This document shows positions 4,526 to 60,948 of a DNA stretch of 64,000 nucleotides, piece by piece. This DNA is from Artocarpus heterophyllus (Eukaryota; Streptophyta; Magnoliopsida; Rosales; Moraceae). The notes below the pieces were generated by a model. That model had not been told where the DNA came from, searched no databases, and worked only from the letters and a program-made list of their open reading frames with translations. Where the stretch lies: contig JAJQZP010000440.1 of assembly GCA_025403435.1 (NCBI GenBank), positions 310,001 through 374,000 of the forward strand, written 5' to 3'. A program made the position numbers and the translations under genes. The stretch's first letter is position 1. The number at the start of each line of letters is the position of its first letter.

Positions 4526-4537
4526 TGGCATCATAGC
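4526..4537 (+). promoter_or_regulatory. Primer-binding site (initiator Met tRNA), degenerate
   Basis: TGGCATCATAGC starts two bases after the 5' LTR. The common plant initiator-Met PBS is TGGTATCAGAGC, and this site differs at two positions. It fixes the LTR end at 4523. Confidence 0.8.
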
Positions 4538-10324: not shown

Positions 10325-10337
10325 CCAAGTGGGAGAA
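10325..10337 (+). promoter_or_regulatory. Polypurine tract of Copia element
   Basis: CCAAGTGGGAGAA lies immediately before the 3' LTR, the usual site for plus-strand priming. The minus-strand relative has the same AAGTGGGAGA at its 3' LTR border. Confidence 0.75.
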
Positions 10338-20230: not shown

Positions 20231-22350
20231 ATGGCAGTATCGACTCCTGTTTCTTTAACGTTCAAGGTAACAAGGCACGAACCGGAGCTGGTTGTCCCAG
20301 CTAAGCCTACCCCACACGAGCTTAAACAACTCTCAGAAATCGATGACCACACCAGTCTACGGTTCCATATTCCGATGATACAGTTGTATAGGCACAGTCC
20401 CTCCAAAGAAGGTAAGGACCCCGCGAAAGTGATTAAGGAGGCACTTGCAAAAGCACTTGTGTTTTACTACCCTTTCGCCGGTAGGCTCAAGGAAGGCCCT
20501 GGCGGGAAGCTCTTGGTGGATTGCACCGGGGAAGGTGTGTTGTTCATTGAGGCTGATGCAGATGTTACGCTTGACCAATTTGGAGATGTTCTGCCCCCAT
20601 TTCCTTGCTCGGAGGAACTTATTTATGATCCTCCTAAATCCCAAGGGATTTTGGCTTCTCCCTTGTTGCTAATTCAGGTAAGTTTCTCCTACATGTAATT
20701 CATTTGTCTATGTTTCATCTACTCATGATTGAATGTTTTAGTTGCTTTAGATCACTTATTTGTTTCTCTAGAGAAAAAAATGGTAAATACATGAATCAAA
20801 AAAACATAACCAAGGTGTCAAACTGGTAGAAGTTGACTATTCTGACATAATTAATAAACTAGAACTTAGCTCAAGGAGTAATCTATTCAAAATATACATG
20901 TAAGAATGTTTTAATATTCCCTCACCGTACATTATTTAAAGTTTTATAATTTTGCCTTTTTTTTCCTTCTATCAATTATCACACAAAATATAAAATAATC
21001 ACAACCGTTCATGTGCACCGTAACCAGAAATCTAGAACTAGTATTTTTTTTTTTTTGGTAATATGTAAAACTAATACAAGTATGAAAAGTGTTTAGCGTG
21101 CAAATTACTTGTGTAATTATGGTAGGTGACTCGCCTCAAGTGTGGTGGCTTCATATTGGGATTGAACCACAACCATGCCCTCTCTGACCTAAAAGGGCTA
21201 GTCCAATTCCTGACGGGGGCGGCGGAGATCGCAGCCGGCGCACTCACCCCTTCCATCCTGCCCGTGTGGCAAAGGGAGCTCCTCAATGCCAGGGACCCTC
21301 CCCAAACAACATGCACCCACCATGGCTTCCACCAAGCCCCAGCCGCCCCTGCCCCGGCCCATCATGTCGAAACGACCCACATCTCTTTCCTCTTCGGGCC
21401 CTCCGAGGTCTCTGCCCTCCGCAGGCTACTGCCACCGCACCAACAGAAGTATTCCGACTTCGAGCTCCTCACTGCCTGCGTCTGGCGCTGCCGTGTAGCT
21501 GCACTTCAGGTAGTGGTGAAGCCACATAAAAAGTACATTTATTGGGCTTCCAAAATTTTTACTTTTTATGTTGGAAGCTTTTTGTAAAATTAAAATTTTG
21601 TGACCTTATTTTGATACATAAAATAATAAGTACTTCTGCATTTAATAATAAAAAAATTAGTGGCTATAAGGCTAACTTAATAATAATTTTATGATAACTT
21701 AATTTTAAAATATAGAGTTAAAATTCACTTATTTCTGGGCTTAAAAAAAATTATAACCATGTCTCTTCAATATTCATATTTTATAATTTTTGTATTATAG
21801 TTATATTTTCTGACTGCGCCACTCGCTACAGGTCAACCCCGAGGACGAGGTCTATATGATACTCGTCGTTGACTCGAGGCCTGCGTTCAACCCTCCATTG
21901 CCGACCGGCTTCTACGGCAACGCGCTAGCGTTCTCCACCGCGGTGACGACAGCCGGGGAGCTGCAGCAGAAACCTCTGGAGCACGCGGTGGAGCTGGTGA
22001 GGAAGGCGGCGGCGGACGTGTCGGAGGAGTACATGAGGTCGTTTGCCGACTTCATGGCGACAAATGATCGGCGACACTTCACTTTGGTGAGATCGTTTGT
22101 TTTGATGGATTTGAGGGGCGTTGGATTTGGAGACGTGGACTTCGGGTGGGGCAAGCCCGTTTACGGTGGGGCCCCCGGGGCCATGCATGGGGTGTCGAGC
22201 TTCTTCATGGGGTTCAAGGACGGAGTGAGTGGAGAGGAAGGGCTTGCGTTGCCCCTTTGCTTGCCTACTCCGGCTATGGACAGGTTTGTGAAGGAGTTGA
22301 ATTCTTTGTTGCGTTTGGTCAAAGATGATGATCATGAAGTTGTTGGCTAA
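20231..22350 (+). CDS. BAHD acyltransferase, benzyl alcohol O-benzoyltransferase-like
   Basis: Three exons, 20231-20677, 21126-21509 and 21832-22350, join in phase to a 449-residue protein, the normal BAHD length. BAHD enzymes are cytosolic and transfer acyl groups from CoA thioesters to alcohols or amines. The N-terminus ([18 protein letters not shown]), [50 protein letters not shown] and [12 protein letters not shown] are typical of benzoyl-CoA:benzyl alcohol/methanol-type acyltransferases of scent and fruit ester formation. The catalytic HxxxD is present as HALSD in exon 2, in an unusual context (LNHNHALSD instead of LNHTMSD). The structural DFGWG motif is intact in exon 3 ([13 protein letters not shown]). 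Substrate cannot be decided from sequence. No frame damage is seen. Confidence 0.92.
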
Positions 22351-24692: not shown

Positions 24693-26895
24693 ATGGATGC
24701 AGGATCTGTGAATTCTTCATCATCGATCTTGAAGACCCAGTCTCGAAGCCCTCTTCAAGAGCAATTTCTTCACAGAAAGAATTCCAGGGAAAATGTAAGC
24801 ATCTATTTTTCACTCCGGATCTCTTTTATTGGGTTTTTCCTATTGCAAGTTTAGTTCTGTCTTTACAATTTTTTTCCCCTCTTAACAATTGGAATTTTGT
24901 TCTCAATTTTCAAAATTTTTGAAATTAGGGCATGTTAAGGTTTTTTTATCTGGGGTTTTGAAATACATGAATTAGCCTAATTGCCATTTGTTTATAAAAA
25001 TTCATGAAATCAGGCATTTGTTTTAGATTCCTGAATGTGGAGTATATTCTAATGTAAATACGAATTCTGTTATAGAATGTCAAAACTGAGGGCTTTGTTT
25101 ATCATTTTGAAACCCACGAATGTCCCTATTTGGAACTCATTGGGTTTTGCATTTATGACACGACGATTTGCTATTTTGCTCATAATTGTTGAAATTTGAG
25201 AAATTAGGCCTTTGATTCATCTTGTAGATTCCAATAACACAAAATTAGAATATCAAGTTCATGAATGAATCCTTACTGTGATGATATATGATAACCAGCT
25301 GGACAGATTCATACCCAATCGATCAGCAATGGATTTCGATTATGCCCACTATATGCTGACAGAAGGAAGGAAAGGTAAGGAAAACCCAGTAAGTTCATCC
25401 CCATCAAGAGACGCCTACCGGAAGCAATTGGCAGAGACCTTCAACATGAATCGGGGTCGGATCCTTGCTTTCAAGAACAAGCCTCCCACCCCAGTCGATC
25501 CTTTCCCCCACGAGTTCGCTTCGGCTCCACAGAACAAACCTGCAAAGTCCCGGCGACACATTCCTCAGGTGGGAAAAATTCGATCTTATACTCGTATCTT
25601 TGAGAAACTTGGAGATGAATTCTTGCTGCTTCTTTTGGATGTTTTTGTAATTCAAAGTTGTGTCCTAATAATGTGGTTGGTTTTTGTTTTGTGCAGTCTT
25701 CAGAGAGGACTTTGGATGCTCCTGACCTTGTGGATGACTACTACCTGAATCTCTTGGATTGGGGAAGCGCAAACGTTCTTGCAATAGCTCTCGGAAACAC
25801 AGTGTATCTTTGGAATGCCACAGATGGCTCTACTTCAGAACTTGTTACCATTGACGATGAGAATGGCCCGGTTACAAGTGTTAGTTGGGCTCCTGATGGA
25901 CGCCACATCGCCATTGGCCTGAACAATTCTGATGTACAGCTCTGGGATTCAACTGCTAGTAGACAGGTTTGTTACATAAAGCACCTTCCTTTCCTTTGTA
26001 TGCTAGCAAGTTATAGCAAGGATCGTGCTAATGATTGGCCTTATTGTGATTATGTTTTTCAGCTGAGAACTCTAAGAGGTGGTCATAGAATGCGAGTGGG
26101 CTCACTAGCCTGGAACAATCACATACTTACTACCGGTGGAATGGACGGTTGGATCATCAACAACGACGTAAGAGTTCGATCTCACATCGTTGAGACCTAC
26201 AGAGGACATGAGCAAGAGGTTTGTGGGCTCAAATGGTCAGCCTCGGGCCAGCAGTTGGCAAGTGGAGGGAATGATAACCTCCTCCACATATGGGACAGAT
26301 CAATGGCTTCGTCAAATTCAGCAACACAGTGGCTGTACAGGCTCGAGGACCACACATCAGCGGTGAAAGCCCTCGCTTGGTGCCCATTCCAGAGCAACTT
26401 GCTGGCTTCTGGTGGAGGAGGCAGTGACCGCTGCATAAAGTTCTGGAACACACACACCGGTGCATGCATCAACTCGGTTGACACTGGCTCTCAGGTTTGC
26501 GCTTTGCTGTGGAACAAGAACGAGAGAGAACTGCTTAGCTCACATGGGTTTACTCAGAACCAGCTCACTCTTTGGAAGTACCCTTCAATGGTTAAGATGG
26601 CAGAGCTCACTGGCCATACCTCAAGAGTTCTTTTTATGGCTCAGGTAATTGTTACATGAATTTCTAGAAATCATTTTGTTATTTAAACCCACTGGATTTT
26701 TCTGTATGCTGCTGTGTGCAAATGTTCTAACTTGTCGTATACTTTGTTTTTCAGAGCCCAGATGGTTGCACAGTAGCATCGGCAGCCGGGGACGAAACAT
26801 TGAGGTTCTGGAATGTTTTCGGTGTCCCTGAAGTGGCTAAACCTGCTCCAAAGGCCAACCCTGAACCTTTCCCTCATTTGAATCGCATTCGGTGA
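24693..26895 (+). CDS. CDC20: CDC20 (Fizzy) WD40 activator of the anaphase-promoting complex
   Basis: Five exons (24693-24794, 25299-25568, 25697-25966, 26063-26644, 26755-26895) join in phase into 454 residues, matching plant CDC20 length. The product recruits substrates to the APC/C ubiquitin ligase at metaphase-anaphase and is the target of spindle-checkpoint proteins. Visible motifs are C-box DRFIPNRSA near residue 36, GKENP near residue 60, [10 protein letters not shown] (MAD2-interaction-like) near residue 84, and seven WD40 repeats. The repeats include [69 protein letters not shown] and [13 protein letters not shown]. The protein ends in the Ile-Arg tail (LNRIR) that docks on APC3. No frame damage is seen. 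A decayed partial copy lies about 6 kb downstream. Confidence 0.96.
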
Positions 26896-30310: not shown

Positions 30311-30429
30311 TTATAAGACACTCATAAATGAAAGTTCCTAATTGAGCATAAATGGAGTCATGCATTCAGATTTTGCCAGAATTCATTTTTATGAAATATT
30401 TATATGTTATGTTATAAAAGACATTTTGA

Positions 30430-30665
30430 GAAATGTTTTACGTTAAATGTTTATGAAAAACATTTTTATTATTTTCAAGAAAAGATTTATAAATGACGTT
30501 TTAAGAAAAACGTTCAAGAAATGTTTTACGAAGAATGTTTATGCAAAACGTTTCAGAAATGTTTTATGGAAAACGTTTATGAAAAATGTTTTCAATTTAT
30601 GAAAAACGTTTTCAGAAATGTTTATGGAAAACGTTCTTGAAAAATGTTTCAAGAGAAAGGTTTTT
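30430..30665. repeat. Degenerate repeats of AAACGTTTATGAAAAATGTTT
   Basis: About ten diverged units built from GAAAAACGTT and AGAAATGTTT follow each other. The AACGTT cores are self-complementary. Confidence 0.75.
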
Positions 30666-32458: not shown

Positions 32459-32502
32459 TGTAGATGAAATATTTAAGATGTGCATGGGGTTCAACTGCTA
32501 TT
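32459..32502 (+). pseudogene. CDC20 pseudogene fragment, left half (exon 3 end)
   Basis: The 44 bp before the Gypsy element (attggtgtag ... ggttcaactgctatt) align with the end of CDC20 exon 3 (25912-25955, attggcctga ... gattcaactgctagt). Its continuation lies on the other side of the element at 40686. The stretch is short, but the two halves are in the right order and orientation. Confidence 0.6.
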
Positions 32503-34477
32503 TGTGACACCCGTTATTCTCCTAACGGGTATTGAGGTAATTAAATTAATTTTTAATGTATAAAAAAAAAATTGCTTCATTTAAATTTATTTTATAATAT
32601 TTATTTTTATCTATTTTTAAGTTTTCTAAAATTCTCCTATATTTATTTAGTATGATTACTAAAAAGCCTTAGAACTTCTAATAAATCTCAAAAATGTCAT
32701 ATTGGCATTATGTGTGTTAAAGTCTTTAGATGAGACATAAGGATATCTTTTCCAACTACTCTTGACCCTCATTTTCTTTATTTCCTCCGTGACATGCTTC
32801 AACATGTCTCCTCTATAATTGTTTCTATCACTTCTTTTCAAAGACTTCATCTTTTCTTCCTTTCTCTTCCACGGTTCCCACACTCTTCTTCTCATTTCTT
32901 TGCTGAAGCAAAATACTTAGAGAACTTCTTCAAGGCAGCCATAAAAATCAGCCACCATCACCTCCATTTGAGCAAGAATTTCAGTCATACCGAAGTAAAG
33001 GAACCTGTTTTGAAGCCATTTCAAGCTTCCAACTAACCATAATCCGAGGTTAGAATCTTATGAACAAATTTAGTCTTTCATTTATAAATTTTCTTTTATA
33101 CTAAAGGATTATTCAAATTTGCGTTCTTAAACCTAAGTATACGTTTGTTGCTATTTTGGAGCATATGTATGAAGTCTAAGTGTATATGCCCTAGACAGAA
33201 AATTTATATTGTTAAACTTTATAATACCTCTATGGGCAGTGGTTATTTCTTGAAATTCTAAGATTAAATTAAAATAAATTTTATGAATGTAGTTGTATGT
33301 TGTGCTTTAGTTTTAATTGTCCTTATGCACGCCTTAGGATCAAGGGAGTATGGAGCTAACGTTAATTGATTCCAGGATTAAGAGACTGTTGATAAGCTTA
33401 AAAGGTAGGGATTCTATTACTCATCTTTTGTGAGGTTTTTATAGAATTAAAATTGATTGTTTTGCCGCAATATATATATATCTATGTTGAACTGATATTA
33501 TATGTATATCACATATGAAACTATGACATGGACTCGTCTTGTATTGTACGGCGAGGAACATAATGAATTGACACATGTTATAAATTGAGAAGCATGGTTA
33601 GGAAAATTAACTCTATTAATAATGATTTAATATAGAGAAATTGTGAGACATGAAAAGGGCGACGGTTACGTCCTTGGGCATGAATACCCTAAAAGGTAAA
33701 GTAGGGGGAAGGCGATGACGCTTCCTTGGGTTGAAAGTCCCAGAACACACTGTACAGGAATCGATTTGGTGAGGACTCGGGGCTTGATGTCCCCTCACCG
33801 GAACACCCTTGGAATGTTTATAGGGTGATCAAGTGCGCCCATTTGGGTTTCGATGAGTTGAGTGATACTCAATTTAACATGGATACCTAGGAACAATGAT
33901 GATTGGTAATATTTGTATAAATGTGTAATTATGACACTTGGTAATGATTAACTACGGTATCCATAAGATGTGATCATAATAAACCTCATAATCTGGAATA
34001 TGATGTAACTTACTAACCATGCAGATTTTAATGTGGTAATGATAAAAACCTAAAGGTGGGTAATGGTTTTCTCTACTGAGCATAGTGTTGCTCATACCCT
34101 TATGTTTATATCTTTTCAGGACTCACTAAGTGTGAGGTGGCTACGAGAAATATAGTTGAGGAAGTGATCTAGCTATATTACATTGGGACTGCTTCAATTG
34201 TTGAGAATGTTCTTCATGATAATGTAAGCATCAATTGTTACTTTCTGTGACTGTATTACAATGTGTTGAGGGTTAAAATGATGATGACAACAGTTTATAT
34301 TATTAAATTTAAGGTGCTACATTAAAACTGTGGTTTATTTGTCGTTTATATTTTTATTTTTGAGTTGAGAGTTTTCATTTAAGTCCCGGGCAAATTTTAT
34401 TTTTAAGGTTTTACTTTTATTATTTATTTTTATTTTATCTCATTAAAAACTGTTAACCCCCATATAGGGGCGTTACA
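32503..34477 (+). repeat. 5' LTR (1975 bp) of the LOG-carrying element
   Basis: Starts TGTGACACCCG, ends CGTTACA. It includes the pseudo-palindromic TACTGAGC...GCTCAT motif near 34076 and pyrimidine stretches. Its only seen difference from the 3' LTR is one extra A in the A-run at about 32562. Confidence 0.95.
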
Positions 34478-34484
34478 GAATTTT

Positions 34485-34496
34485 TGGTATCAGAGC
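34485..34496 (+). promoter_or_regulatory. Primer-binding site (initiator Met tRNA)
   Basis: TGGTATCAGAGC, the exact plant consensus, lies 7 bp after the 5' LTR end. Confidence 0.93.
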
Positions 34497-35933
34497 CTAG
34501 GTTCGGTTAACCTAGGGAGTGTAGCACCGCTTTAAAAAAATATATTTTTGAGATGGTTTTGAAGCTGAATTTTCATTGTCATCATCAAAATGAACCTTCA
34601 CATTGATTTATACAGTCTAGAAGGATGTAACATGGAAAGGCCATAAAATGAAAATACTAATGGTTATATGAGTACAATAATTACATAGAAGGAAAGTATT
34701 AATAGTTATGAGGGAATGATAATTATATGGAATGAGTTTATAAGTAGATTGCTTATGAGAGATTCGTATAATATTTGGATCTATAAGCATATCTAATTCG
34801 TATAAACGATGAGAAATTCGTGTAGATACGAGGATTTAAAAGCCTTTTGTCTCGTGAAAAACAATAAGAAATATAAGGCTTGATTTATTGATTTTAAAGT
34901 TTGACATAGATATGCCAAATTTTTCGTAATTGATTCAAACCTAAGTAATGATTATGTGTGGATTCGATGGAGCACATAAGTGTCAATGTCTTTTCTTAAA
35001 AGTTCTATATATTTGAGGAATATGATATAAGTTGGGAATCATGGTATTGAATCTTGAGAGAGATAAATGTTAGACTTTTGGTCTGTTGAGACTGTGTAAA
35101 GTCTAGAATGCATGAATCTCAAAATTGGAATATTTTGTTACGTACATTGTATTTAAGTGTATCAGTGAATCTTTTGGTTACCTAAGGTTTTGTTATATGA
35201 GGAAATTATATATTGTATAAGTAGAATTGTGGGGATTGTAGATGTTCCTAAGTAGTAACATCTAGTGTCTTTGTTCGTTGATATGGTCTACGTTGAAAGA
35301 CGTAAATCGTATTGATTTCAAGGTTAGTCACATTCTAAACCCTTGGTAGTAATGATGATGAATCCATTGATAGATGTTAAGTATTATGAATAACATATGG
35401 GTGTATGCATTGTTCAATAAGGTTTTGATTAAAACAAAATTATTTGAGTTGCTGGATCATTCAGGAAGATCCTTGTTGTCGTTAAATTAGATTTGTTATT
35501 TATAGTTAACTTTATCTATAGTGGGCTTTGAATTGGGTTTAAGATTCATACGAATTGGTTTTCAATTTTATGTTTGTTATTTAACTCGTTCTAAATGTGT
35601 TAAGGCCGAAACAACCTGACCATTTTCAACTAAGAACATTTGGGCCTAGTTTAAATCTTAAATCAGTTTGATGCACACTGTCTCTCCCACGTGGTCTCTA
35701 TACGTGTCATATAAGTGGTTTAATTATTGTTTACAAATACGTTTACTGTGCATAAGAGCTTATTTCTCCGAGTTCACTTTTTCTCTCTTAATTTGTTATT
35801 TTCTCTCTAAATCGCAAATCCTCTTCTTTTTCATTAAAAATTCTTCTTTTCCTCAAAAAGAAGAAGGAATTCTAGGATTCTGCAATTTACTATCTTAATT
35901 TTTCCTTTCTATTTACTCTTCTTTCATCTCATC
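34497..35933 (+). other. Element leader without gag or pol
   Basis: 1.4 kb of AT-rich sequence full of stops in all frames, where gag would normally lie. The last 120 bp before 35934 are CT-rich (ttctctctaaatcgc, cttcttttcctc) and look like a genuine 5' UTR for the following ORF. Confidence 0.6.
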
Positions 35934-36455
35934 ATGGACCCAAAGTACCAACACCTGAGAAAGTATTTCCCATCACTCTCCCAAAAGATTCTTAGAAAGA
36001 AATACAAGGCTAGAATTACTCGGTTGTGGATTCTTATGCGTTTTGGTATCCCTTGTGATGTGAGAATGTTGATAGAGGGGAAAATCCGTCCGAGTGACTT
36101 TAGTCAAGATGTCGGTTTACCAGGAACAGGTACCAGTCGTAGTGCAATGAAAAGAAGAGCTCGTGCCATCGTGGTCACTTGTAACAAATGTGGAAGACAA
36201 AATTGTAACGGTAAATGTACTTCACCTGGTTATATGTCTACGAATAGAGAGGATAAAATAAGGTTTTGTAGGGATGGACTTTCAAAGGAGAACTTGGATA
36301 GCATCCATCCTCCTCTCCACGGTCACCCTAGTGGATATGTTCAAGGAGCTATTTTTAAACTCTGGCCTAAATTTTATACAGAAAGACAACGCCTCAGGAA
36401 TATGGTATTTCTAGATCCTGTTTGTCAAGCCATAAGAAAATTGGATGGGGAATAA
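35934..36455 (+). CDS. Unrecognised 173-aa basic protein with a four-Cys cluster
   Basis: An uninterrupted frame from ATG at 35934 to TAA at 36455, preceded by a CT-rich leader. I do not recognise the family. The N-terminal 60 residues are Lys/Arg-rich (KILRKKYKARITRLW). A basic patch (AMKRRARAIVV) leads into C83-x2-C86-x4-C91-x3-C95, a possible zinc-binding knuckle differing from the retroviral C-x2-C-x4-H-x4-C. The C-terminal half (HPPLHGHPSGYVQGAIFKLWPKF) is His/Pro/aromatic-rich. It lies where gag-pol should be, inside a recently moved element, and is intact. It might bind nucleic acid (a gag substitute) or be a captured host exon set. Both are guesses. Confidence 0.6.
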   Translation: MDPKYQHLRKYFPSLSQKILRKKYKARITRLWILMRFGIPCDVRMLIEGKIRPSDFSQDVGLPGTGTSRSAMKRRARAIVVTCNKCGRQNCNGKCTSPGYMSTNREDKIRFCRDGLSKENLDSIHPPLHGHPSGYVQGAIFKLWPKFYTERQRLRNMVFLDPVCQAIRKLDGE

Positions 36456-37100
36456 GTCATCGCTCTATAAAGGTTATTTAGTCTTTACTTATTTAAAGCA
36501 GTTTTAGCTGATGTTCAACAGTTTGTGTTTTTCTTTTACTCAGAATATTTGCTTTTGTGTTTGAAATAATTGTGATTATTAGATTGATACAGTAAGTGTT
36601 AATATCTTATTTAATTTATGATTTTCTTAAATATATATATATAATAAAATATATTATCTTATCAGACACGTTACATACGGTACAGTAATATGTTTGAATT
36701 TTGAAAAGCTTATCCAGATATTTCAAGATTTGTGTCTCAAATTTCAAAAGTTCTACAGTATTTGTCGTTTATATTAAATTTCTAGACTCGGTGTATATTT
36801 GTCAAAAAGTCTACAGTTGTGTCAAGAGGGTCTTCTGTCGAATTGTTCTCAATTGTCAAAAGTTATACAATTAGAGTCTAATCTTTTTCAAAAAGTGAAT
36901 CAGATTTTCTGAAAACTATCAATCACCTTATCTTACTTTCTTATCCGCACAATATTTTGTTTAAATCTTTGGATTACCTTTTCATTACCTACTCGTCTAT
37001 CTCTTTAGCCCTTTTTGTATATTTCTCATCTTTAAAATCTCATGTAGAACCCGAAGTCTAAGTGGAGCAGACATTAAGCAACCACTTCTATAAACCAAAT
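36456..37100 (+). other. Spacer between the two element ORFs
   Basis: AT-rich sequence without coding potential. The first part is 3'-UTR-like, and a TA-rich stretch lies at about 36632-36650. No splice-linked exon was recognisable. Confidence 0.5.
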
Positions 37101-37752
37101 ATGTCTACCTCCCAGTCCACGAAGAAAATAAAGAATGTCTGTGTCTTTTGTGGTTCCAGCCTTGGAAAAGATAAAGCTTATTTAGAAGCTGCAAATCACT
37201 TAGGGCAAGTCCTAGCACGCAAGAAGATTAACATAATCTATGGGGGTGGTAGTATAAAAATGATGGTAAATATGGCACTAGCAGCTAGGTCTAGCGACGC
37301 TACTGATGTAAGAATTTGGCCTCATATTCCAGTTGAAGGAAACCTTTGTAAGGAAGCCATAGGTAAAGGAGAAGGAGTCAGGAGTATCCCTAAAAAATTT
37401 TAAAGACATAATCTATAATTCTGATGCTTTTATAGCATTACCTGGTGGTCTAGGTACTCTTGAGGAAATATTTATAGTTGCTTGTGGGCAATTGTTGGGC
37501 TTTTATTCCAAACCTTTGGGACTGCTGAACGTAAAGGGTTTTTATGACGGTCTTTTGAAATTTCTAGATTACGCTGTGGAAGAAAACATCACTACAGAAT
37601 CGGAGAGACAAATCTTTGTCACTGCTTCAACAGCTGAGGAATTGATAGATAAAATGCAAATAATACATCCAGAATCCGACACTGCAACATCCAAGCTTGA
37701 ATGGGAAAGGGAAAGCCGGGAGCGGCCAATTGATTTGAATCTCCATCTGTAA
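37101..37752 (+). pseudogene. LOG-like cytokinin riboside 5'-monophosphate phosphoribohydrolase inside the retroelement, one frame break
   Basis: LOG enzymes release active cytokinin bases from their nucleotide precursors in one step. From ATG 37101 the frame reads VCVFCGSSLGKDKAYLEAA and INIIYGGGS, the normal LOG N-terminus. A diverged stretch follows where the family has GLMGLVSQAV. The frame stops at 37401-37403 in AAAAAATTTTAA. One base further the reading resumes with SDAFIALPGG, LGTLEEIF, KPLGLLNVKGFYDGLLKFLDYAVEE and TAEELIDKM, to a stop at 37752. The catalytic PGGxGTxxE motif (PGGLGTLEE) is intact. Total span is about 217 codons, usual for LOG. It has no introns, although plant LOG genes normally have several, so it was probably captured as cDNA. 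It is probably inactive unless the break is bypassed. Confidence 0.85.
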
Positions 37753-38691
37753 TCTTTTTGTTTTATCTTTGGCATGTAGGCATGTGTGTCCGTATTTCGT
37801 GTGTTACGAATAACCGTTTGCCTTGTATTCTGTGTTTCTTGTGGTACGTTGTTGTTCAATCTTTTAGATTCATTGAGCCTAATGCCGGGATGGCTGGATA
37901 CGGAGTACTTGATGCTCTCGAAACGCATCCTTCTTAAGGTCCGATCTTTTGTTTATCGATGTTTTTGTATCCTCTAAGCATGCATGATATGGATAGCTGG
38001 TATACGGAGTGCCTTGTACTCTCGAAACGTATCCGTATCATAATTGTAATGTGTAATATTCTGTTAATATTATGTGGAAGTACCAGAGTCAGTTATGGGG
38101 ATATTCCATATGAAATATGAGTATATTATTTGGGTTGAATGTTTGTGTCATGAGGATAGCTGTTTAATGAAAAATATGTCGGGTATGTTTGCAACCAGAG
38201 ATTCCGTTTAATATCTCTATGAATAAGTTTAATGTATGGTTTTGAATATAAGTGTTTGTGATATATGTTTTATGATTATGTTTTAGTTTATTAGTTGAGG
38301 TATGAAATCAAATATATTTGACTTTTCCTTACTCAAAAAGGAAAAGGAACCTAAAGATGAAGTATATAAAATTTCTCTAGCAATCTCCTTACATGTGATT
38401 GTAAATCACAGTCCATGGACAATGAAGGACTGGAATCATGGTATGGTAAATATGTATGCCTGATCAGATTCTTAGACTATTATACGGTGTTACAAGTTGA
38501 AACTTGTCAAAAATACTCTCATTGAGGGATTTAGGAGTAAGATTTATTATGCAAGTAAATAAGTGGAGATACGTTGACTTAAATTTGAAGGACAAACAAC
38601 ATTAACAGTTTAGACACGGAATTGGAATCATAATGGAATCAAAATTTTTACTAGTATTGCTAGAATTGAAATTTCGAGGACGAAATTTCTT
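37753..38691 (+). other. Element 3' interior, non-coding
   Basis: No gene is seen. It contains an imperfect direct repeat (37890-37930 and 37991-38035; core GGATACGGAGT ... CTCTCGAAACG). It ends with ATTTCGAGGACGAAATTT at about 38670-38688, a remnant typical of the pol end of plant Gypsy elements. Confidence 0.6.
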
Positions 38692-38706
38692 TAAGGGGGG
38701 TAGAGC
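38692..38706 (+). promoter_or_regulatory. Polypurine tract of the LOG-carrying element
   Basis: TAAGGGGGGTAGAGC lies directly before the 3' LTR. A G-rich purine tract here is the expected plus-strand primer. Confidence 0.8.
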
Positions 38707-40680
38707 TGTGACACCCGTTATTCTCCTAACGGGTATTGAGGTAATTAAATTAATTTTTAATGTATAAAAAAAAATTGCTTCATTTAAATTTATTTTATAA
38801 TATTTATTTTTATCTATTTTTAAGTTTTCTAAAATTCTCCTATATTTATTTAGTATGATTACTAAAAAGCCTTAGAACTTCTAATAAATCTCAAAAATGT
38901 CATATTGGCATTATGTGTGTTAAAGTCTTTAGATGAGACATAAGGATATCTTTTCCAACTACTCTTGACCCTCATTTTCTTTATTTCCTCCGTGACATGC
39001 TTCAACATGTCTCCTCTATAATTGTTTCTATCACTTCTTTTCAAAGACTTCATCTTTTCTTCCTTTCTCTTCCACGGTTCCCACACTCTTCTTCTCATTT
39101 CTTTGCTGAAGCAAAATACTTAGAGAACTTCTTCAAGGCAGCCATAAAAATCAGCCACCATCACCTCCATTTGAGCAAGAATTTCAGTCATACCGAAGTA
39201 AAGGAACCTGTTTTGAAGCCATTTCAAGCTTCCAACTAACCATAATCCGAGGTTAGAATCTTATGAACAAATTTAGTCTTTCATTTATAAATTTTCTTTT
39301 ATACTAAAGGATTATTCAAATTTGCGTTCTTAAACCTAAGTATACGTTTGTTGCTATTTTGGAGCATATGTATGAAGTCTAAGTGTATATGCCCTAGACA
39401 GAAAATTTATATTGTTAAACTTTATAATACCTCTATGGGCAGTGGTTATTTCTTGAAATTCTAAGATTAAATTAAAATAAATTTTATGAATGTAGTTGTA
39501 TGTTGTGCTTTAGTTTTAATTGTCCTTATGCACGCCTTAGGATCAAGGGAGTATGGAGCTAACGTTAATTGATTCCAGGATTAAGAGACTGTTGATAAGC
39601 TTAAAAGGTAGGGATTCTATTACTCATCTTTTGTGAGGTTTTTATAGAATTAAAATTGATTGTTTTGCCGCAATATATATATATCTATGTTGAACTGATA
39701 TTATATGTATATCACATATGAAACTATGACATGGACTCGTCTTGTATTGTACGGCGAGGAACATAATGAATTGACACATGTTATAAATTGAGAAGCATGG
39801 TTAGGAAAATTAACTCTATTAATAATGATTTAATATAGAGAAATTGTGAGACATGAAAAGGGCGACGGTTACGTCCTTGGGCATGAATACCCTAAAAGGT
39901 AAAGTAGGGGGAAGGCGATGACGCTTCCTTGGGTTGAAAGTCCCAGAACACACTGTACAGGAATCGATTTGGTGAGGACTCGGGGCTTGATGTCCCCTCA
40001 CCGGAACACCCTTGGAATGTTTATAGGGTGATCAAGTGCGCCCATTTGGGTTTCGATGAGTTGAGTGATACTCAATTTAACATGGATACCTAGGAACAAT
40101 GATGATTGGTAATATTTGTATAAATGTGTAATTATGACACTTGGTAATGATTAACTACGGTATCCATAAGATGTGATCATAATAAACCTCATAATCTGGA
40201 ATATGATGTAACTTACTAACCATGCAGATTTTAATGTGGTAATGATAAAAACCTAAAGGTGGGTAATGGTTTTCTCTACTGAGCATAGTGTTGCTCATAC
40301 CCTTATGTTTATATCTTTTCAGGACTCACTAAGTGTGAGGTGGCTACGAGAAATATAGTTGAGGAAGTGATCTAGCTATATTACATTGGGACTGCTTCAA
40401 TTGTTGAGAATGTTCTTCATGATAATGTAAGCATCAATTGTTACTTTCTGTGACTGTATTACAATGTGTTGAGGGTTAAAATGATGATGACAACAGTTTA
40501 TATTATTAAATTTAAGGTGCTACATTAAAACTGTGGTTTATTTGTCGTTTATATTTTTATTTTTGAGTTGAGAGTTTTCATTTAAGTCCCGGGCAAATTT
40601 TATTTTTAAGGTTTTACTTTTATTATTTATTTTTATTTTATCTCATTAAAAACTGTTAACCCCCATATAGGGGCGTTACA
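38707..40680 (+). repeat. 3' LTR (1974 bp) of the LOG-carrying element
   Basis: Same sequence as 32503-34477 with nine instead of ten A's near 38766. Followed by target copy CTATT at 40681-40685. Confidence 0.95.
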
Positions 40681-40685
40681 CTATT

Positions 40686-42199: not shown

Positions 42200-43791
42200 C
42201 TACTTCATATTCACTTTCAATCTTTTATTCCCTTGCCCTCTTATAATCTGTTGTTGAACCACCACTACAGAAGCACTACCACTGAAATCATCAGCCCCAA
42301 TATAGTCCCTAATGATCCCGAACTCCTGATGATTCTTCGAGTCCGTCCAATCCGACAATCCTTGGAGAAGCACTGGATTGACCCCCTGCTTCCTCCCCAC
42401 AATCAAAAGATCAAAACTATCATCGTTCATGGCCTTTATCGCCTCCATCGTCTCCGCGCTGTTACTCACAATCACCTCCTTGAAAAGCATCCTCTCGTTT
42501 CCGTTATTCTTCTCCAAAAACCACGTCATCAGCCCATCGTCCAGCTTCTTCTCCATCTTGTCATCCCCTTTGCCATTGAACGCCAGGAGTCGGATCACCG
42601 TCAGGCAGACGTCGGGGTTTCTGAGCATCCGGTCAGCATAGGCCAGAGCTTCTCTTGCATCAGCTCCTCCTAAAAATAACGTTGCGATGTTGAGCCTGCG
42701 GCTGCGGCCGATCTGACTATTCCTTATGCTGGCGTAGCCTTTTTCGATAAATATCCCGACGGAGCACGGTGCGTTGGACAACACCAAGGAGTTGACGGAG
42801 TGGTCACCGAGAGTGAGACGTTCTCCTTCAACTGCCCCTCCAGTACTGTCGTCAAAATTATCCCTGATGAAGGGAAGGATGATGATAGTTGCTTTGTTTA
42901 TGAGAGCTCTCTCGCAGATATCTTGATACATTGTTCTTTTAGGGGTGACGATGGTGTAGGAGTGCAGTTTAAGGCAATCGGACTCGGCATGGGATTTTTG
43001 GAATTGGTTGAGGACGTTATGCATGACGAGGCAGGAGGCATACTGCGGGGGAACGTCGTGCTGGCTGCAGTCGTGGTCAATGCAGACTGGAGCGGCGCCG
43101 CCGATGAGTTCCATCATGACGAGGGCGGTGACAGAGAAAGGCGTGGACGGAGTCGGGTTCGAGGCCTCGAGGAGGATGACAAGTCCTGCCACACTTTTTT
43201 GGTTGTGGATGGGGAGGAGGATGCCGAGATCGGTGCCGGGCGGTGTGTGCTGGATGGTCCTTTTCTGGTTCACCATCATGTATTGCTTTGCCGGGTCATA
43301 GAAGATGCTGATTAGGGGTGTTAGTATTCCGGTTATCAGGGTCGTTAGGAGCACTAGTATTGTGAAATAGGACGGATGTAACATCTGACAACACACATAT
43401 AGCACATATATATACACACATCAATATCACATGATCATGCATAGAAAGAATAAATAAAAAATAAAAGGATAGAAAACCTAGCAAGCTAATTAAGCTATGT
43501 ATAGAGTATAGTATATACATACCCGTTTGTCCATCCAATGAATGAATAACAAAATCTCCATTTCAACCCTGATGCTGAGAGTAAGGCTGATGGCAAGGCT
43601 ATTCCTCCAAGGTAACTTGAAGTAGAGACAAGAGAGGAAAGTGGCAAGATTCTTGGTGACGTAGCCAGTTATTATCATGGCCACAACCGGCTTCAACATC
43701 GGCCAAATAAAGTTGACATTGAAGATATCAACATACATTCCGATGTATGCGAAGGAGAAGGGCATAAGAATGTGTGTGGCTATGGTCTCTG

Positions 43792-44509
43792 TGTTGAGGA
43801 ATTAGACGACTCCTAATTCCAATGATCGCAAGAACGAACAATTGCAGAAAATAAATAGGAGAAAAGAAGAAAGAAGAGACACCAAATTTTATACAGGTTT
43901 GTCCAAATTTAAGACTACGTCATAGTTTTACCGCTTGCAGATTCCACTATGATGAAGGAGATTACAGATTACAAGAGCAGTTTCTCACACATTCACAAAT
44001 TGTGCTTACCAAAAATCTCTTCTATCTAACACCCTGTGGGAATTTTTCTCTCTCAAGGATGGAGCTCTCAAGAATTTTGCCTCTCACAAAATAATGCCAC
44101 TCTCAATCTCACACACACACAACCCTAGCCACCTTATGTCTATTTATAACCAAAGGAGGAGAAAAATAGCAACTAATGAGAAACCCTAGTAGTTTCCCGG
44201 TTTTGGGACCTTTGAGTTCGACTCTGACTCAAAAAATATCGCTCATCATAGCGCGTCAGCGCCGCGGCGCTCGAAACGGGCGCTGCAGTGCCCCCTGCAG
44301 CGCCTAGGCGCCATCCACTCGCAGCCTAGGCGATTTTCTCCTGGCACCTAGGCGCCCTTGTCCTAGCGCCTAGGCGCCCTCGTCCTAGCGCCGCGGCGCT
44401 CTTTTGCCAGAGCTGCGGTGCTTACTCCCTGCCTCCGAGGACGCGTTTCTCTATTTTTTTCTTCCTTTGTGCTGGGGTCTCGACTTGATTTGATTCCACA
44501 TCTACAACA
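43792..44509 (-). repeat. 3' LTR (718 bp) of the CHX-inserted Copia element
   Basis: Plus-strand ends are TGTTGAGG and CTACAACA. At 44250-44420 it holds GC-rich palindromes: AGCGCCGCGGCGCT (perfect 14-mer) and several GCGCCTAGGCGCC. It is 44 bp longer than the 5' LTR, and the difference falls in this palindromic part. Confidence 0.92.
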
Positions 44510-44567
44510 ATCTCCCACTTGGAGATTAATAAATCACCATGTCTCCCACTGCAGCAGCAACGACTTC

Positions 44568-47210
44568 TCACACCTCTTGGAGAAGTCCAACTGAAGTTGC
44601 GCACAACTTCAGTTTCTCAATCGGAACCATCTTGGTGAACATATCTCTGGATTCTTTTACCACCCACCTTGCCTTATACCATTTGCTGCCATCACTTTTA
44701 TCTTTTACCTGGTATACCCACTTGTTGTGCAAGGCCCGCCCTGTGGTAACTTTGCCAGTTGCCATGTCCGATTGGACATCAAGGAATCCATCTCGTCCCT
44801 TATGGCTAACTCCCACTTGACTGAATCTCTAGCCTCCATGGCTTCATCATAGCTCTCTGGCTTACCTCTATAGGTCAACAAAATATAATGCAGAGTAGGG
44901 AGTATCTCTGCGACGGTCTTATAGTCTGGCTAGACCTCCTGACAAGTGTGGCAGGAGTACTCTGGTTTCCCTCTGGAGCTACATTTTCTTGGTCTTCAAC
45001 CTCTAGATTCTCCACTTTCACTTCAGGAAGATCCTTCAATGGAATCACCTCAGGCTTCTTGTCTTCAGAACCTGAACCCCTGGAGTCAGTGTTGTCTCTG
45101 TCCTTATACAGAACACCTTCATTGAAGATCACATCCTTGCTCCTAATAATCTTCTGACTTTGGTCATCCCAGAGTCGATAACCAAACTCAAGTTCACCAT
45201 AACCAACTAGAAAACACTTCTTTGACTTGACATCTAGTTTACTTCTGCAGCAGAATCAATGTAAACATAGGAAACACAACCAAACACTCTCAAGTAAGAG
45301 AGATCAACCTTTTTATGGCTCCAGACTTCTTCCGGTAGCTTGAACTTCAACGGTGTGGATGGACTTCTGTTGATCAGATGAGTGGCTGTATTAATCGCCT
45401 CAGCCCAAAACATCTTTGGCAGCCTTGCATGCAACCTCATGATTCTGGCACACTTGTTTAAAGTCCTATTCATCCTCTCAGCTACCCCATTCTGTTGTGG
45501 TTTCCCTGGAATGGTCTTCCTCATCTTTATTCTATTCTCAGCACAGTACCGCCTAAAATCTTCATCTAAATACTCTCCCCCATTGTCAGACTGCAAGCAC
45601 TTCACCTTCAAATTTGTCTCGTTCTCCAACATGGCTCTACATCTCTTAAAAGCATTATAGACATCAGATTTGTTTTTCAGAAAGTAAACCCACACCTTCC
45701 TATTTGAGTCATCTATGAACGTCACATATTAATTTACGCCACCAAGGGAAATCACCGGCGCAAGCCCCCACACATCAGTGTGAACTAGCTCTAATTTCCT
45801 GGACTTAGGCTCTCTACCAATCTTTGAGAAACTAACTCTCTTCTGTTTATCAAAGATGCAAGCTTCACACAAACTATGATCAACAGTTTTCAAACCCGAC
45901 AGTTTTCCTTTGCAGTGAAGCACCTTCATACCCTTCTCACTCATGTGACCGAGCCTATAATGCCATAGCTCTGTATTGGCAGCGGAATCAGCTACTGCTA
46001 TCGTATCTATGTAGCTAGAGTTCATATAGAGAGTTCCAGCCTTGCATCCCCGAGCAATAACCATCGCTCCTTTTGTGACTTTCCAACCTCCACAATTGAA
46101 GGTCACTTTATGTCCTTCATCATCCAGTTGCCCCACCGAAATCAAGTTGCGCATTAGTATAGGAACATGTCTCACCTTATGAATCTTCCACACAGACCCA
46201 TTAGGCATTTTTAAACTGACATCTCCAATGCCAACAATATCCAAAAGTTCTTCATCAGCGAGATAAACCTTACCATGATTTTCAGCAACATAATTCTCCA
46301 GGACATGACGGTGTGCAGTGGTGTGGAATGATGCTCCTGAATCTATCACCCACGAATCAAAAGAACTGTCAACTGACAAGATTAAAGCATCTTGTTGCTC
46401 TTCAGTGGCGGCGTTAGCTGCGTCATTAGTCTTGTCTTCGTTCTTCCTTGGAGCCCTGCAGTTCTTTTTCAAGTGGCCAGTCTTCCCACAGTTCCAACAC
46501 TCCATTGTCCTACCGTTCCTTGACTTACTTCTCTCATTCCTCGACTTGCCTCTCCTGCCATTATCCCTGTTGGATTGCCTGTCAAGTTTCCTGCCCCTAT
46601 CATCAACATTAAGGGCCGAGTTCGACGAAGAGGCTTCACCTGAGTCCTTCTTGCGAACTTCTTCTGCCAGAATGGAGTTTCTGACATCAACAAATTTTAG
46701 TTTGGCATTCCTAAGCGAATTTGTAATGGCCACCCTCATGGGTTTCCAACTATTCGATAACAAGGCCAAGAGGATTAGGGCATTGATCTCATCATCGAAT
46801 TTAATCTCTACCGAGACCAATTGGTTCAGGATGGTGTTGAAACTATTCAGATGCTCTACAACCGAGGCACCTTCAGGCATCTTTAAATTAAAAAGCTTCT
46901 TCATGAGATGTACCTTGTTATTGGATGAGGGCTTCTCATACATCTCTGACAGAGCCTTCATCATCCCTGCTGTAGTAGTCTCCTTCGCAACGTTGTGAGC
47001 AACGTTCTTTGACAAGGTCAAACGGATCACACCGAGCACTTATCTATCAAGGGGATTCCACTCCTCATCCTTCATGCCTTCGGGCTTATTACCCAAGGGC
47101 AAGTGCAGTTTCCTGCTGCAGAGATAGTCTTCAACTTTCATCCTCCAATAGGAAAAAACCGAACCATCAAATTTGGTGATGCTGACTGCCATACCTTCTT
47201 CTCCAGTCAT
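44568..47210 (-). pseudogene. TNT1-like gag-pol remnant with RT/RNase H deletion
   Basis: Gag starts at 47210 (ITKFDGSVFSYWRMK). A stop near 47040 replaces an expected Gln codon. Gag then continues with a CCHC zinc knuckle (CWNCGKTGHLKKNC), protease motif WVIDSGASFH, pre-integrase LWHYRLGHMSEKG, and integrase (SDNGGEY, PGKPQQNGVAERMNRT) after another stop at about 45728. Linker sequence follows, then only the first RT residues (WVYQVKDKSDGSKWYKARWV). That stretch is joined near 44655 directly to the last RNase H residues (DMFTKMVPIEKLKLCATSVGL). About 1.5 kb of the usual pol is therefore missing. Confidence 0.9.
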
Positions 47211-47230
47211 CGTTCTTGATCAAAACCTCC

Positions 47231-47242
47231 GCTCTGATACCA
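47231..47242 (-). promoter_or_regulatory. Primer-binding site of the CHX-inserted Copia element
   Basis: Minus-strand TGGTATCAGAGC, two bases inside the 5' LTR border at 47245. Confidence 0.93.
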
Positions 47243-47244
47243 GT

Positions 47245-47918
47245 TGTTGGGGAATTAGGCGACTCCTAATTCCAAGGATCGCAAGAACGAACAATTGCAG
47301 AAAATAAATAGGAGAAAAGAAGAAAGAAGAGACACCAAATTTTATACAGGTTCGCCCAAATTTAAGACTACGTCCTATTTCTGTCGCTTGCAGATTCCAA
47401 TATGATGAAGGAGATTACATATTACAAGAGCAGTTTCTCACACATTCACAAATTGTGCTTACCAAAACTCTCTTCTATCTAGCACCCTGTGAGAATTTTT
47501 CTCTCTCAAGGATGGAGCTCTCAAGAATTTTGCCTCTCACAAAATAATGTCACTCTCAATCTCACACACACACAACCCTAGCCACCTTATGTCTATTTAT
47601 AGCCAAAGGAGGAGAAAAATAGCAACTAATGAGAAACCCTAGTAGTTTCCCGTTTTTAGGACCTTTGAGTTTGACTCTGACTCAAAAAATATCGCGCATC
47701 ACAGCGTGTCAGCACCGCGGCGCTCGAAACGGGCGCTGCGGCGCCCCCTGCAGTGCCTAGGAGCTCTCCACTTGGCGCCTAGGCGCCCTCGTCCCAGCGC
47801 CGCGACGCTCTTCTGCCAGAGTTGCGGCGCTTGCTCCCTGCCTTCGAGGACACGTTTCTCCCTTTTTTTCTTCCTTTGTGCGGGGGTGTCGACTTGATTT
47901 GGCTCCACATTTGCAACA
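47245..47918 (-). repeat. 5' LTR (674 bp) of the CHX-inserted Copia element
   Basis: Plus-strand ends are TGTTGGGG and TTGCAACA. Scattered substitutions and one block deletion separate it from the 3' LTR, so the insertion is older than the one at 32503. Confidence 0.92.
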
Positions 47919-49440
47919 CTCTGTCCTCTTGACCAACGTGGATCCTATTGGCAAGCCGTCGGGAAGGACAATGCCAAACCAGAGTGGGCCGGTTCCAATG
48001 GTTAGACCGAACAAATCGGTGACAAAGCCCCTGGCGAGGGCCTCGACGAGGAAAGCTACGATGATTGGTTCATTGATGCGACGGCGCTTTCGGACAACAA
48101 AGAATGAGATGATAAGCTTTCGGATGATGATGAGGAAGATAAAGACGAAGATGCCAGAGGCAATCATATAAAGCCTCTGTTGTTGGAATAGGCTTTCTTG
48201 TCCTGTTTACCATATTCGAAGGTAAAGACGCCTATGATTCCCATAGCGTCAGAGATGATGGAGATGGAGAGGGCCATACGGCCAACCTCAGAGCTAAGGA
48301 GGTTGAGCTCCTTAAGGACATCGTAGAGGATGGGGAAGTAGGTCAAGGAGACAGTAGAGGCAATGAGACTAAGGGAAGAGAATGTGGCGAGGTTGGCATC
48401 CATGGAGTGTCGGAGGAAAAAGCCAACGACGAAGAGGATGAGCATAGGTACGAAAACACTGATGAGGATGATACAGATGTGCCTCTTGTCGGACTTGGTG
48501 ACGAGGGTCATGTCCATCTTGACACCAGAAACGAAGAGGTAGTACATAAAACCAAGGAAGGCCTATGTTCTTCATCATGAAGTCGGAGTTCTCAGGGAAC
48601 ATGAACGCCTTGAACTTCTTGCTCCGACTTAACAAGCTAGGTCCCACTACTATGCCTCCCTGTATACATATATAAATATATATATACTCACACACAAATG
48701 CATAAGACTTATTTTGAACGGAATAGGGTAGACAAACTTGGTGCTGTTTGATTATAATAGTGTAAGAAAAGAAAGATAATAATTAAGGACATGGCATAAA
48801 CTTGCTGAAAAGAAATTAGGATTTAGCAAGGTTACAATATTAATATTCAGATATACCATGACATTCTGAATTGTCCTAACATCAATGAAGATTAGAAATT
48901 CCAAATATCAGATAATCAGATTTTAATTTCTAATCAAGCATACAATAATTAAACGACCAATTAAATAGAGGGAAAAGAAAACAAATCAAAGATCATATTT
49001 CACATTGGATGGCTTGCATGATGCATCACTTATATGCAATAAATTATATATTACCACAATTCACATGTGGTGTACATATGTATTATTATTAATAATTAAT
49101 TAATTAAGGAGACTACTCACAATGATATCGGAGACAATATTTGGCTGTCTAGAGGCTTAAGAAGGAAGCGAATTAAGCGAGTGACGATGATGACAGAACT
49201 GATCTCTAACAATACCAAAGAAAAAGATAACTTTGAAGGGTTATCTCCATGGAAAACACCGAAAGAATGATCGTGATGAATCGTTAATTGGCAGACGAAC
49301 GCTCCCGGCACGTAGCTCTTGAATCTCGCAGCCGCACCGTTATCGGTTTTTCCGGCAACAGAAATGCCGCCTCCCAATATACCGGCACCTACCCACGAGT
49401 TGTACTGCAGCCCATTGTACGCTGGGAATTCCCTTACCAT

Positions 49441-54640: not shown

Positions 54641-55074
54641 TTTCATTCTTCCTCTCTTGATTGATTGTTTAGTGTGCATAATCTTATCTTTATTGACCCA
54701 TTGGACAACGATCTTGGTCACAATGGTTCAATTCCTTGTGGTCTCCGAAACATGACCCTTCTTCAACATCTTGATTTGTCTTCCAGTGATTTTGATTCTC
54801 CTATCCCTAATTGCCTTTATGGTTTTTCAGGTCTTCAACACCTTGTCCTTCGCTCAGATGAATTGCATGGAGTTATATCAAGTGCCATTGGAAATCTAAC
54901 TTCTATTGTTAGCCTTGACCTCTCATATAATAATTTGGGAGGGAAATTAACACCAGCCCTGGGAAATCTTTGCAATTTGGAATCAATTTTATTGGAAGGA
55001 AACAAACATAACGGAACCATCTCAAATGCCTTTGAAAGTTTGTTAGCTTGCAATCCCAACAGACTAAAGTCAAT

Positions 55075-55103
55075 GTTTTTTTTTTTTTTTTTTTGGGGGG
55101 GGG
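55075..55103. repeat. T-run followed by G-run
   Basis: About 20 T then nine G inside an LRR repeat. It disrupts the coding frame (expected ...NNSFTGQI after it). Confidence 0.9.
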
Positions 55104-56161
55104 AATAATTCTTTTACTGGTCAAATCACAGAAATTGGAGAGTTCAAAGATCTAGCAGTTATAAATATTTGGGGCTAATTTGCTTTCTGGTCCCATTCCT
55201 ACGTCACTTCGGAAATTATCAGCATTGGAGATTTTAATTATTGCTCTAAACACATTAAATGGATCTCTTCCAGAGGGGCTTGGTTCTCTCTCAAATTTAC
55301 AACAACTTTATATCAACAATAATCTTTTCGAAGGTGTTGTGTCTGAAGTTCATTTCTCCAATCTCCCAAATTTGTGTGTCTTAGAAGCTTCTCAAAATTC
55401 ACTGATTCTGAGAGCAACTCCAGATTGGATTCCCCCTTTTCATTTTGCAATATTACAGTTAAGTTCTTGGAACTTAGGTGCTCAAGTTCCAATGTGGCTT
55501 AAATCACAAAGAGATTTTATTGAAATAGATCTCTCAAATGCTGGAATTTCAGATGTCATTCCCAGTTGGTTTCGGAACTTATCTACTAGCTTCTAATACA
55601 TGAATCTATCTCACAATCGATTACATGTCGAAGTTCCTGATATGCATCTTGTTAATGATTACTCTGTGATATACTTGGGTTCCAACAAGTTTGAAGGCCT
55701 ATTACCCCGTATCCCTTTGCATGTCTACGAGCTCGATCTTTCCAATAATTCCTTTATCTGGTGACATTTCTCACTCCTTATGTCATCCAATGGGGTTAGC
55801 ATAACAGACTGCATATTTTTCATCTCAGAGAAAATGTTTTATCAGGAAACAGTCCTGACTGTTGGATGTATTGGCCGTTATTAAAGGTGATAAATTTGAG
55901 TGATAACAAACTTAACGAAGAAATTCCAAGTTCCATGGAATTATTGCAGAGCTTGGAGTCATTGCATTTGCGCAACAATAGCCTCTCTTGGAGAAATATC
56001 TCCATCTCTTTATAATTGTACAATGTTAACTATCATCGACCTTGGTCTAAATAAGTTTGTGGGGAACAAACCAACATGGGTTGGAATTGTTCTTTCAAAT
56101 CTGATAATACTCGGCCTTTATTCAAACAAGTTTAGTGGACAGATTCCATTCAAATTTTGGA

Positions 56162-59800: not shown

Positions 59801-60948
59801 AGGTACAAGTGTTGATACAGAAATCAAATTTCTAGAGAAACTTGAAATATAAAATGTCTTTTCTAAATTCAAAATGAAACCACTACTTAGAACTAAACTG
59901 CACATTCAAACAGCCTCTACATGTGAACGCATCTTGTTTCTAGAATAAATGCATTGTTCACTTGCCATTGGCTTCCTTAGGCTTCGCATACCCTGTAAGG
60001 TATTTGCAACATGGATTGTAGATCCGGAATCAATCCACCATGTGTTATAAATAACATCAACCAGATTAGATTCATAACAAACAAATGAGACTGAATTACC
60101 TTTCTTCTCATGCCAACTCTGAAATTTGCCACAATCCTTCTTCATCTATCCCTTTTTTTTACGGAAGAAACACTTGGATTCTTTTTTAATGACAGCTTTG
60201 GAAGGTATTTTACCTTTCTCCTTATCTCTGGCTTGATTCTGGTCTTGATTCTGATTCTTTCCCTTGGTTGTTGTTAGTACAATTTCACCCATTTCCATTA
60301 GAAGCCGCCCTTCTTCTTGAGTACACATGGTCAGCAGTTCATTGATTGACCATTTGTCTTTATGTGTATTGTAAGAGATTTTAAAGGGCCCATATGAATT
60401 TGGAAGGGTGTTCAAAATGTGGTGCACCAAGAAAGACTCAGACATATCCACCTCAAGGTTCTTAAGTTGAGCCGCTATGTTCCTCATCTCCATGATGTGC
60501 TCACGCATACCTCTCACATTGGTGAGCCTTAAGGACGAGAACCTCTAATTAGAGTGCTAGCAAGTACCTTATCTAAAGTTTCAAATTGCTCATCAATGGC
60601 CTTCAATAATGCCCGGACCTTGTCATACTATTCGACGGAACCACATATGCCAACAGAGATCTTGGTCTTTGTGAACATGATACTAAGGCGATTAGATCGC
60701 TCCCAACGTTCATAAAGAGCAATCTTATCCTAAGTGTTAGTTTCAGTGATTACGGGCTCGTCTTTTCTTATAGCATAATCAATGTTCATCCACCCCAAGT
60801 GAAAGAGAATTCTCTCCTTCCAGACCTTATAGTTATCCCCTTTTAGTTTAGGGATATCACATCGAACATCAGAGAAATTCACAGGTTGTATGAATGCATA
60901 ATTAAAACAGACATGCTTATGATCCAAAATATTGAGACTAATAGACAT
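56836..60948 (-). pseudogene. Gag-pol remnant of the minus-strand Copia element
   Basis: Minus-strand reading gives gag from about 60948 (DIPKLKGDNYKVWKERILFH). A zinc-knuckle region near 60160 (KCFFRKKKG) and protease-like WWIDSGSTIH near 60050 follow. Integrase segments run 59905-59198 (MLWHQRLERIS, ISFIDDYSRY, GGEYYGRYTEDG), the rest of integrase to about 58830, then RT at about 58370-57420 (QQMDVKTTFLN, LVLYVDDILLATN). RNase H at 57370-56836 (SHFAGCIDSQK, TMEAGF) ends RDHVDRRGLGSLV. Stops or frame changes occur near 60145, 59905, 59197, 58106, 57421 and 56925. It is dead. Confidence 0.9.

Follow-up and report, generated by a model that had tools for sequence, protein, structure and literature searches.

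Extra open reading frames (ORFs) are described in all or most copies of many elements in the available text of a review (PMC7264820), in which neither YgdH nor lonely guy occurs. The case closest to the subject of this report, a long terminal repeat (LTR) retrotransposon at positions 32503-40680 of a 64-kb stretch of Artocarpus heterophyllus DNA (hereafter the window; G000:C85:310001-374000), is that of a YgdH domain, as in LONELY GUY (LOG), within LTR consensus sequences of Citrus sinensis and C. clementina and, in unfiltered data, of Populus trichocarpa. In the sections available to us, that result agrees with and credits Steinbauerova 2011, and the Gypsy consensus bearing the domain is anchored on reverse transcriptase (RT) (PMC9289625). 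A LOG-type domain inside LTR elements is common to both systems. However, the Citrus and Populus elements were detected through their RT domain and the same sections mention no partner resembling ORF173, the 173-residue ORF that accompanies LOG in the window family, whereas no pol was found in the latter. The first-pass annotation of the window had supposed the combination to be undescribed, which was too broad: LOG in a Gypsy element was already on record (PMC9289625), and it is the ORF173-like partner that goes unmentioned there.

Other described systems offer partial parallels. LARD elements, as defined in the available text of PMC6022998, possess LTRs, a primer-binding site (PBS), a polypurine tract and more than 2 kb of length, and neither gag-pol nor any domain; the window family shares the first four and the lack of detectable gag-pol (20 of 38 non-gene interior segments scanned), but departs from the definition in its LOG domain and in keeping two coding genes that are apparently selected. 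The TR-GAG elements of the same source, with gag, with or without protease, and no RT or integrase, resemble the single tandem period read at L051, a locus of a second family treated below, where gag and a weak protease match occur without RT or integrase; L051 differs in adding ORF173 and LOG, and the window family in having no gag (PMC6022998). Gypsy elements of Phalaenopsis with an AlkB demethylase likewise maintain an extra ORF through rounds of copying, but the enzyme is another one and the elements measure 25 kb, again in the sections available (PMC9289625).

Here we show that ORF173 and the LOG-like gene, carried by a young family in which no gag-pol was found, recur together in a second LTR family, and we consider what this pair may do for the elements that bear it.

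The window element and its family

The genome searched comprised 985 Mb in 334 contigs. The window contains a complete LTR retrotransposon, with paired LTRs, a target-site duplication, a PBS and a polypurine tract:

32498..32502, no strand: left target-site duplication, CTATT (sequence reading and LTR-pair analysis)
32503..34477, + strand: 5' LTR, 1975 bp, TGTGAC...GTTACA
34485..34496, + strand: PBS TGGTATCAGAGC, read from the sequence 3' of the 5' LTR
35934..36455, + strand: ORF173, a 173-residue zinc-finger-like protein (CX2CX4CX3C) with a weak, sub-threshold Viral_NABP match (ORF and profile scan)
37101..37752, + strand: LOG-like gene, frameshifted in this copy, with PGGxGTxxE present and Asn at the catalytic-Arg position (profile scan and copy alignment)
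38693..38700, + strand: polypurine tract AAGGGGGG, read from the sequence; the 3' LTR begins six bases later
38707..40680, + strand: 3' LTR, 1974 bp
40681..40685, no strand: right target-site duplication, CTATT (sequence reading and LTR-pair analysis)

Pairwise comparison of the two LTRs gave no substitutions and one gap column. The first-pass annotation had described near-identical LTRs, this duplication, PBS and polypurine tract, an intact 173-residue ORF and a recent insertion in which no gag or pol motif was seen, and all of this was borne out. We take the PBS to fit initiator-Met tRNA and the 3' end to resemble those of Tekay chromoviruses.

The interior yields 41 stop-to-stop segments of at least 38 residues on both strands, three of which belong to ORF173 or LOG. 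Pfam profiles detected no gag, protease, RT or integrase in 20 of the 38 others, the sole match reported among these 20 being a chance-level DUF (E 0.11). At 19 of 20 further loci the inter-LTR sequence as fetched was the same interior of approximately 4.2-4.4 kb; the remaining locus, L024, was cut. Eight rows of the interior search stop at interior base 3377, so that gag-pol beyond this point was conceivable. The two of these eight that were read (L048, L049) both continue into the same 3' part, more diverged, and then into the LTR.

The same annotation had anticipated a family as opposed to a one-off capture, and the searches agree. Searching with the interior scored 38 candidates, which gave 43 rows; 24 rows are full-length at 97-100% identity (window included), and both ORFs persist among the copies. 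The ORF173 protein is found at 100% identity at at least 150 places in the genome, and the LOG protein at at least 150 places listed as 100% (a rounded figure, most scoring one step below the query itself). As nearly all places listed for either protein fall on contigs C1-C10, the real numbers are higher than those listed. Searches with the LTR and with the leader scored the best 40 of 745 first-look candidates and the best 40 of 3069 candidates, respectively.

LTR pairing was attempted for 21 elements (the window element and the 20 loci), of which 17 gave a pair and 14 were counted, L024 being dropped for mispaired nested copies and L009 and L010 for sharing an LTR within a tandem array. No substitutions separated the LTRs in 9 of these 14, and 12 of the 14 bore an exact 5-bp duplication. 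Mean divergence among copies was 1.0-2.3% depending on the interior region (19 of the 21 copies, some chosen by similarity). With this much divergence between copies but substitution-free LTRs in most elements, recent activity probably came from several source lineages. The window family is a young family of non-autonomous LTR retrotransposons present in many copies. It includes a variant (L018, L025, L027) with LTRs of approximately 2.33-2.36 kb in place of 1.97 kb, roughly 380 bp more per LTR. Five LOG copies lie on one strand at a spacing of approximately 6.6 kb in G000:C9:16537152-16564376, probably a tandem array of elements with common LTRs like that of L009 and L010.

The ORF173-LOG pair in a second LTR family

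The stretch of Arabidopsis LOG3 at which the window family is most diverged served as a further query, and the best 150 of 1315 candidate places were listed. Three of these were short, exon-like matches (28-37 residues, 74-96% identity), such as host LOG genes would give, and were excluded from the count that follows. The other 147, termed type-2 LOG, were 40-51% identical and mostly about 59 residues long, and 135 of them had no listed stop. Host genes were rejected as the source of these frames, given that most are single frames of about 59 residues and that 62 of the 147 adjoin an ORF173. Specifically, these 62 places have a type-2 ORF173 on the same strand and no more than 1.5 kb upstream, both type-2 lists being the best 150 places, where crude random placement would give 0.02.

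One such locus, L051, belongs to a tandem array that repeats every 9.8 kb or so; one period of it was examined. Gag comes first (PF03732, E 2e-22), followed by a weak match to protease. Next is a homologue of ORF173 (E 3e-63, 55% identity), in which one stop falls near residue 143, and last a homologue of LOG sharing 49-60% identity with that of the window family. Three stops interrupt the gag-protease stretch. In the copy read, protease and ORF173 are only about 0.9 kb apart, too close together for RT and integrase to fit between them. Apart from two short, chance-like matches its LTR region is unlike the window LTR, its LTR ends being provisionally placed. A PBS was read near base 4139 on the reverse strand; we take it to be tRNA-Asp-like and the element to be Athila-like. 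At a further locus, L052, an ORF173 homologue 70% identical, with two stops, is followed 0.7 kb downstream by the start of LOG.

A second family, whose LTR is different and which also holds gag and protease, has ORF173 and LOG arranged as in the window element. Among the open-licence PMC papers compared, this recurrence is new, and the presence of the pair in an unrelated element suggests that it serves the elements themselves.

Selection, the two proteins and the surrounding DNA

Whether the pair is maintained was judged from 19 copies picked by LTR alone (9) or by leader alone (10), regardless of their ORFs; a sample containing L020-L028, which had been chosen for 100% ORF173 identity, was not used. 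ORF173 was intact in 18 of the 19. LOG was unbroken as far as read in all 19 and complete (216 residues) in 15, the frames of the remaining four staying open to the end of the fetched or aligned piece. Changes shared by at least two copies (29, stops counted as non-synonymous) were mostly synonymous, at 11 synonymous to 5 not in ORF173, 9 to 4 in LOG and 20 to 9 together. Private changes (55) ran the other way, at 9 to 18, 5 to 23 and 14 to 41, respectively. The contrast reaches P 0.03 for ORF173, 0.003 for LOG and 1.6e-4 for the two together, on counts that are few, unpolarised and uncorrected for kinship, with the window copy as reference and no tree. Over all changes ORF173 retains a synonymous bias (20 to 23, P 0.004). 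Such a pattern would be expected if selection acted in spreading elements and drift followed insertion, and the counts support purifying selection on ORF173 and LOG while the family spread.

In the window the LOG-like reading runs from an ATG at 37101 to 37752 in two frames, with matches to Lysine_decarbox on its C-terminal part (E 7e-22) and to TIGR00730 on its N-terminal part (E 6e-13); many other copies hold it as an open frame of 216 residues. L036, in which the gene is intact, aligns with Arabidopsis LOG3 (2a33) over 200 residues at 41% identity (E 4.8e-43), ahead of the next chain, 5zbj (E 1.5e-33), which we take to be bacterial. The match extends to residue 204 with both Arabidopsis chains and to residue 187 with 5zbj. 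On the strength of this longer and better match, the gene probably derives from a plant LOG, and its single-exon frame suggests capture through RNA.

Membership of the LOG family need not imply LOG activity. The family protein passes TIGR00730 (130.7 bits against a cut-off of 96.35) and L036, like most copies, retains PGGxGTxxE, but the score for the NCBIfam equivalog CtkRMPhLog falls below its cut-off (85 bits against 300). In our own residue mapping, made through the MHxRK motif, L036 has I, P, N and F at the positions of CgLOG Met96, His97, Arg99 and Lys100. Asn occupies the catalytic-Arg position in all 38 copies readable there, of 40 examined, the Asn stretch of frameshifted copies being read after the shift. 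According to the available text on CgLOG, Arg99 and Glu122 are proposed to carry out catalysis; replacing pocket residues with alanine, S19A excepted, abolishes activity almost completely (PMC4979012). From these altered positions, the window family's LOG is probably not a normal cytokinin-activating enzyme. Of the first-pass view of this gene, the LOG domain and PGGxGTxxE motif stand; the coding region proved to be frameshifted in the window copy, and the epithet "cytokinin-activating" has become doubtful on account of both that frameshift and the substituted residues.

On inspection, Lys and Arg are abundant in ORF173, which contains CX2CX4CX3C. For three of three homologues, the window's first, the top Pfam match was Viral_NABP (PF05515), over the same profile region and the Cys-containing part, at E 0.0096, 0.0056 and 0.02 (16.3, 17.1 and 15.3 bits), all below the Pfam gathering cut-off of 23 bits. 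The likeness to the Cys-rich nucleic-acid-binding proteins of plant viruses (Viral_NABP, Carla_C4) is one of weak profile matching, and with scores below threshold a plant-virus origin was rejected as settled fact. KduD (NCBIfam) gave window ORF173 a better value (E 6e-4), yet was absent from the homologue pieces, in which Viral_NABP recurred. Tblastn against viral contigs confirmed no relative of ORF173 or LOG, and none of the titles among the literature matches listed linked Viral_NABP-type proteins with retrotransposons. AlphaFold2 without an alignment was uninformative (mean predicted local distance difference test score 35). A nucleic-acid-binding role is our best guess for ORF173.

Elsewhere in the window, a second LTR-like pair (4084-10639; 300-nt seeds 98% alike, 6.26 kb apart) surrounds what frame reading indicates to be Copia-like pol, with a 93-bp direct duplication inside it at 7327-7512. 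A diverged Copia-like element at 56889-61047, inverted relative to the one at 5.7-10 kb, matches it at 76-87% in eight blocks. A further LTR-like repeat pair at 43792-47922, 86-95% alike and 3.4 kb apart, flanks frames read as Copia-like gag and integrase, and a short degenerate, ATGTTT-rich repeat with a 54-nt unit lies at 30412-30649. Host-gene-like frames occur at 20231-22350, 25278-26659, 42200-43417 and 54665-55596, presumably a BAHD-type acyltransferase, a WD40 protein, a cation exchanger and a leucine-rich repeat (LRR) protein.

Competing explanations and significance

We think it rather probable that the window family is a non-autonomous one with a selected ORF173-LOG pair, which it shares with a second LTR family, that draws its RT and integrase from elsewhere and whose two proteins aid the element RNA. 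Another, autonomous element would supply RT and integrase, while both proteins would act on behalf of the RNA of the element that encodes them. ORF173 would be a small protein that binds RNA, in packaging or anti-silencing, and its LOG-like partner would bind nucleotides, in the window family probably without hydrolysis of cytokinin-riboside monophosphates.

Several observations weigh against this. Firstly, the pair is not kept everywhere. The window LOG has a single frameshift around 37380-37404. Of eleven loci drawn from the interior search (L009-L019), only L019 has an intact LOG. The gene is broken in the other ten, in L018 because residue 73 is a stop and elsewhere by a frameshift close to residue 100; L015-L017 have a common stop in ORF173. 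With the window LOG broken and ORF173 stopped in L015-L017, some lineages evidently moved without one or both proteins. PGGxGTxxE is altered in two of the 19 copies used for the selection counts and unmatched in one, and in the second family most ORF173 rows are broken (about 61 of the best 150 lack a listed stop, by hand count), so that this family looks older and more decayed. Secondly, LOG shows no synonymous bias over all changes (14 to 27; two parts, P 0.34 and 0.32), and the limits of the selection counts given above apply to both genes. Thirdly, no RT or integrase donor with window-family LTRs was found among the best-scoring copies listed in the interior, LTR and leader searches, and the Viral_NABP scores are sub-threshold.

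The strongest of the alternatives, which we nevertheless regard as unlikely, is that the family is a deletion derivative of an autonomous element with gag-pol and both ORFs, its proteins being kept only through fresh derivatives budding from that element. The LOG (YgdH) domain in the RT-anchored Gypsy consensus of Citrus and Populus, within the available text (PMC9289625), would fit such a progenitor, as would the second family, in which gag and protease accompany the pair. Against it, the loci show the same interior of about 4.2-4.4 kb (19 of 20 as fetched, L024 being cut), and shared synonymous changes separate lineages within the gag-pol-less family itself.

Less probable still is hitchhiking, in which a burst too recent for ORF decay carried the two frames along without function. 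Substitution-free LTRs in 9 of 14 resolvable pairs and the unbiased LOG total are what it would predict, but the copies diverge by 1.0-2.3% in regional means, the bias to synonymous changes is found in shared ORF changes and not in private ones, and other elements still hold a recognisable pair whose proteins are 49-70% identical. Similarly improbable is that the element encodes, in its LOG-like protein, a working cytokinin enzyme that alters the host cell in the element's favour. PGGxGTxxE persists in most copies, and Met and the catalytic Arg are retained in the type-2 LOG of L051. The window family, however, has other residues in place of Arg, Met, His and Lys, and, in the text available, alanines in the CgLOG pocket cost almost all activity (PMC4979012).

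Returning to a selected pair that aids element RNA, a bolder and distinctly doubtful extension is that ORF173-LOG forms a portable accessory cassette moved between unrelated LTR lineages, perhaps with an anti-silencing nucleic-acid-binding protein like those of plant RNA viruses, such that gag-pol-less satellites and autonomous elements would constitute a divided genome, with polymerase in one part and accessory proteins in the other.

Non-autonomous retrotransposons are commonly regarded as passengers whose coding capacity is dead. A large gag-pol-less family that keeps two apparently selected proteins, and whose pair is also present in an unrelated family, indicates that such elements may live by accessory function. 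The system offers a direct test of the role of additional ORFs in plant retroelements, and also of why a LOG-type protein without the catalytic arginine would be worth keeping.

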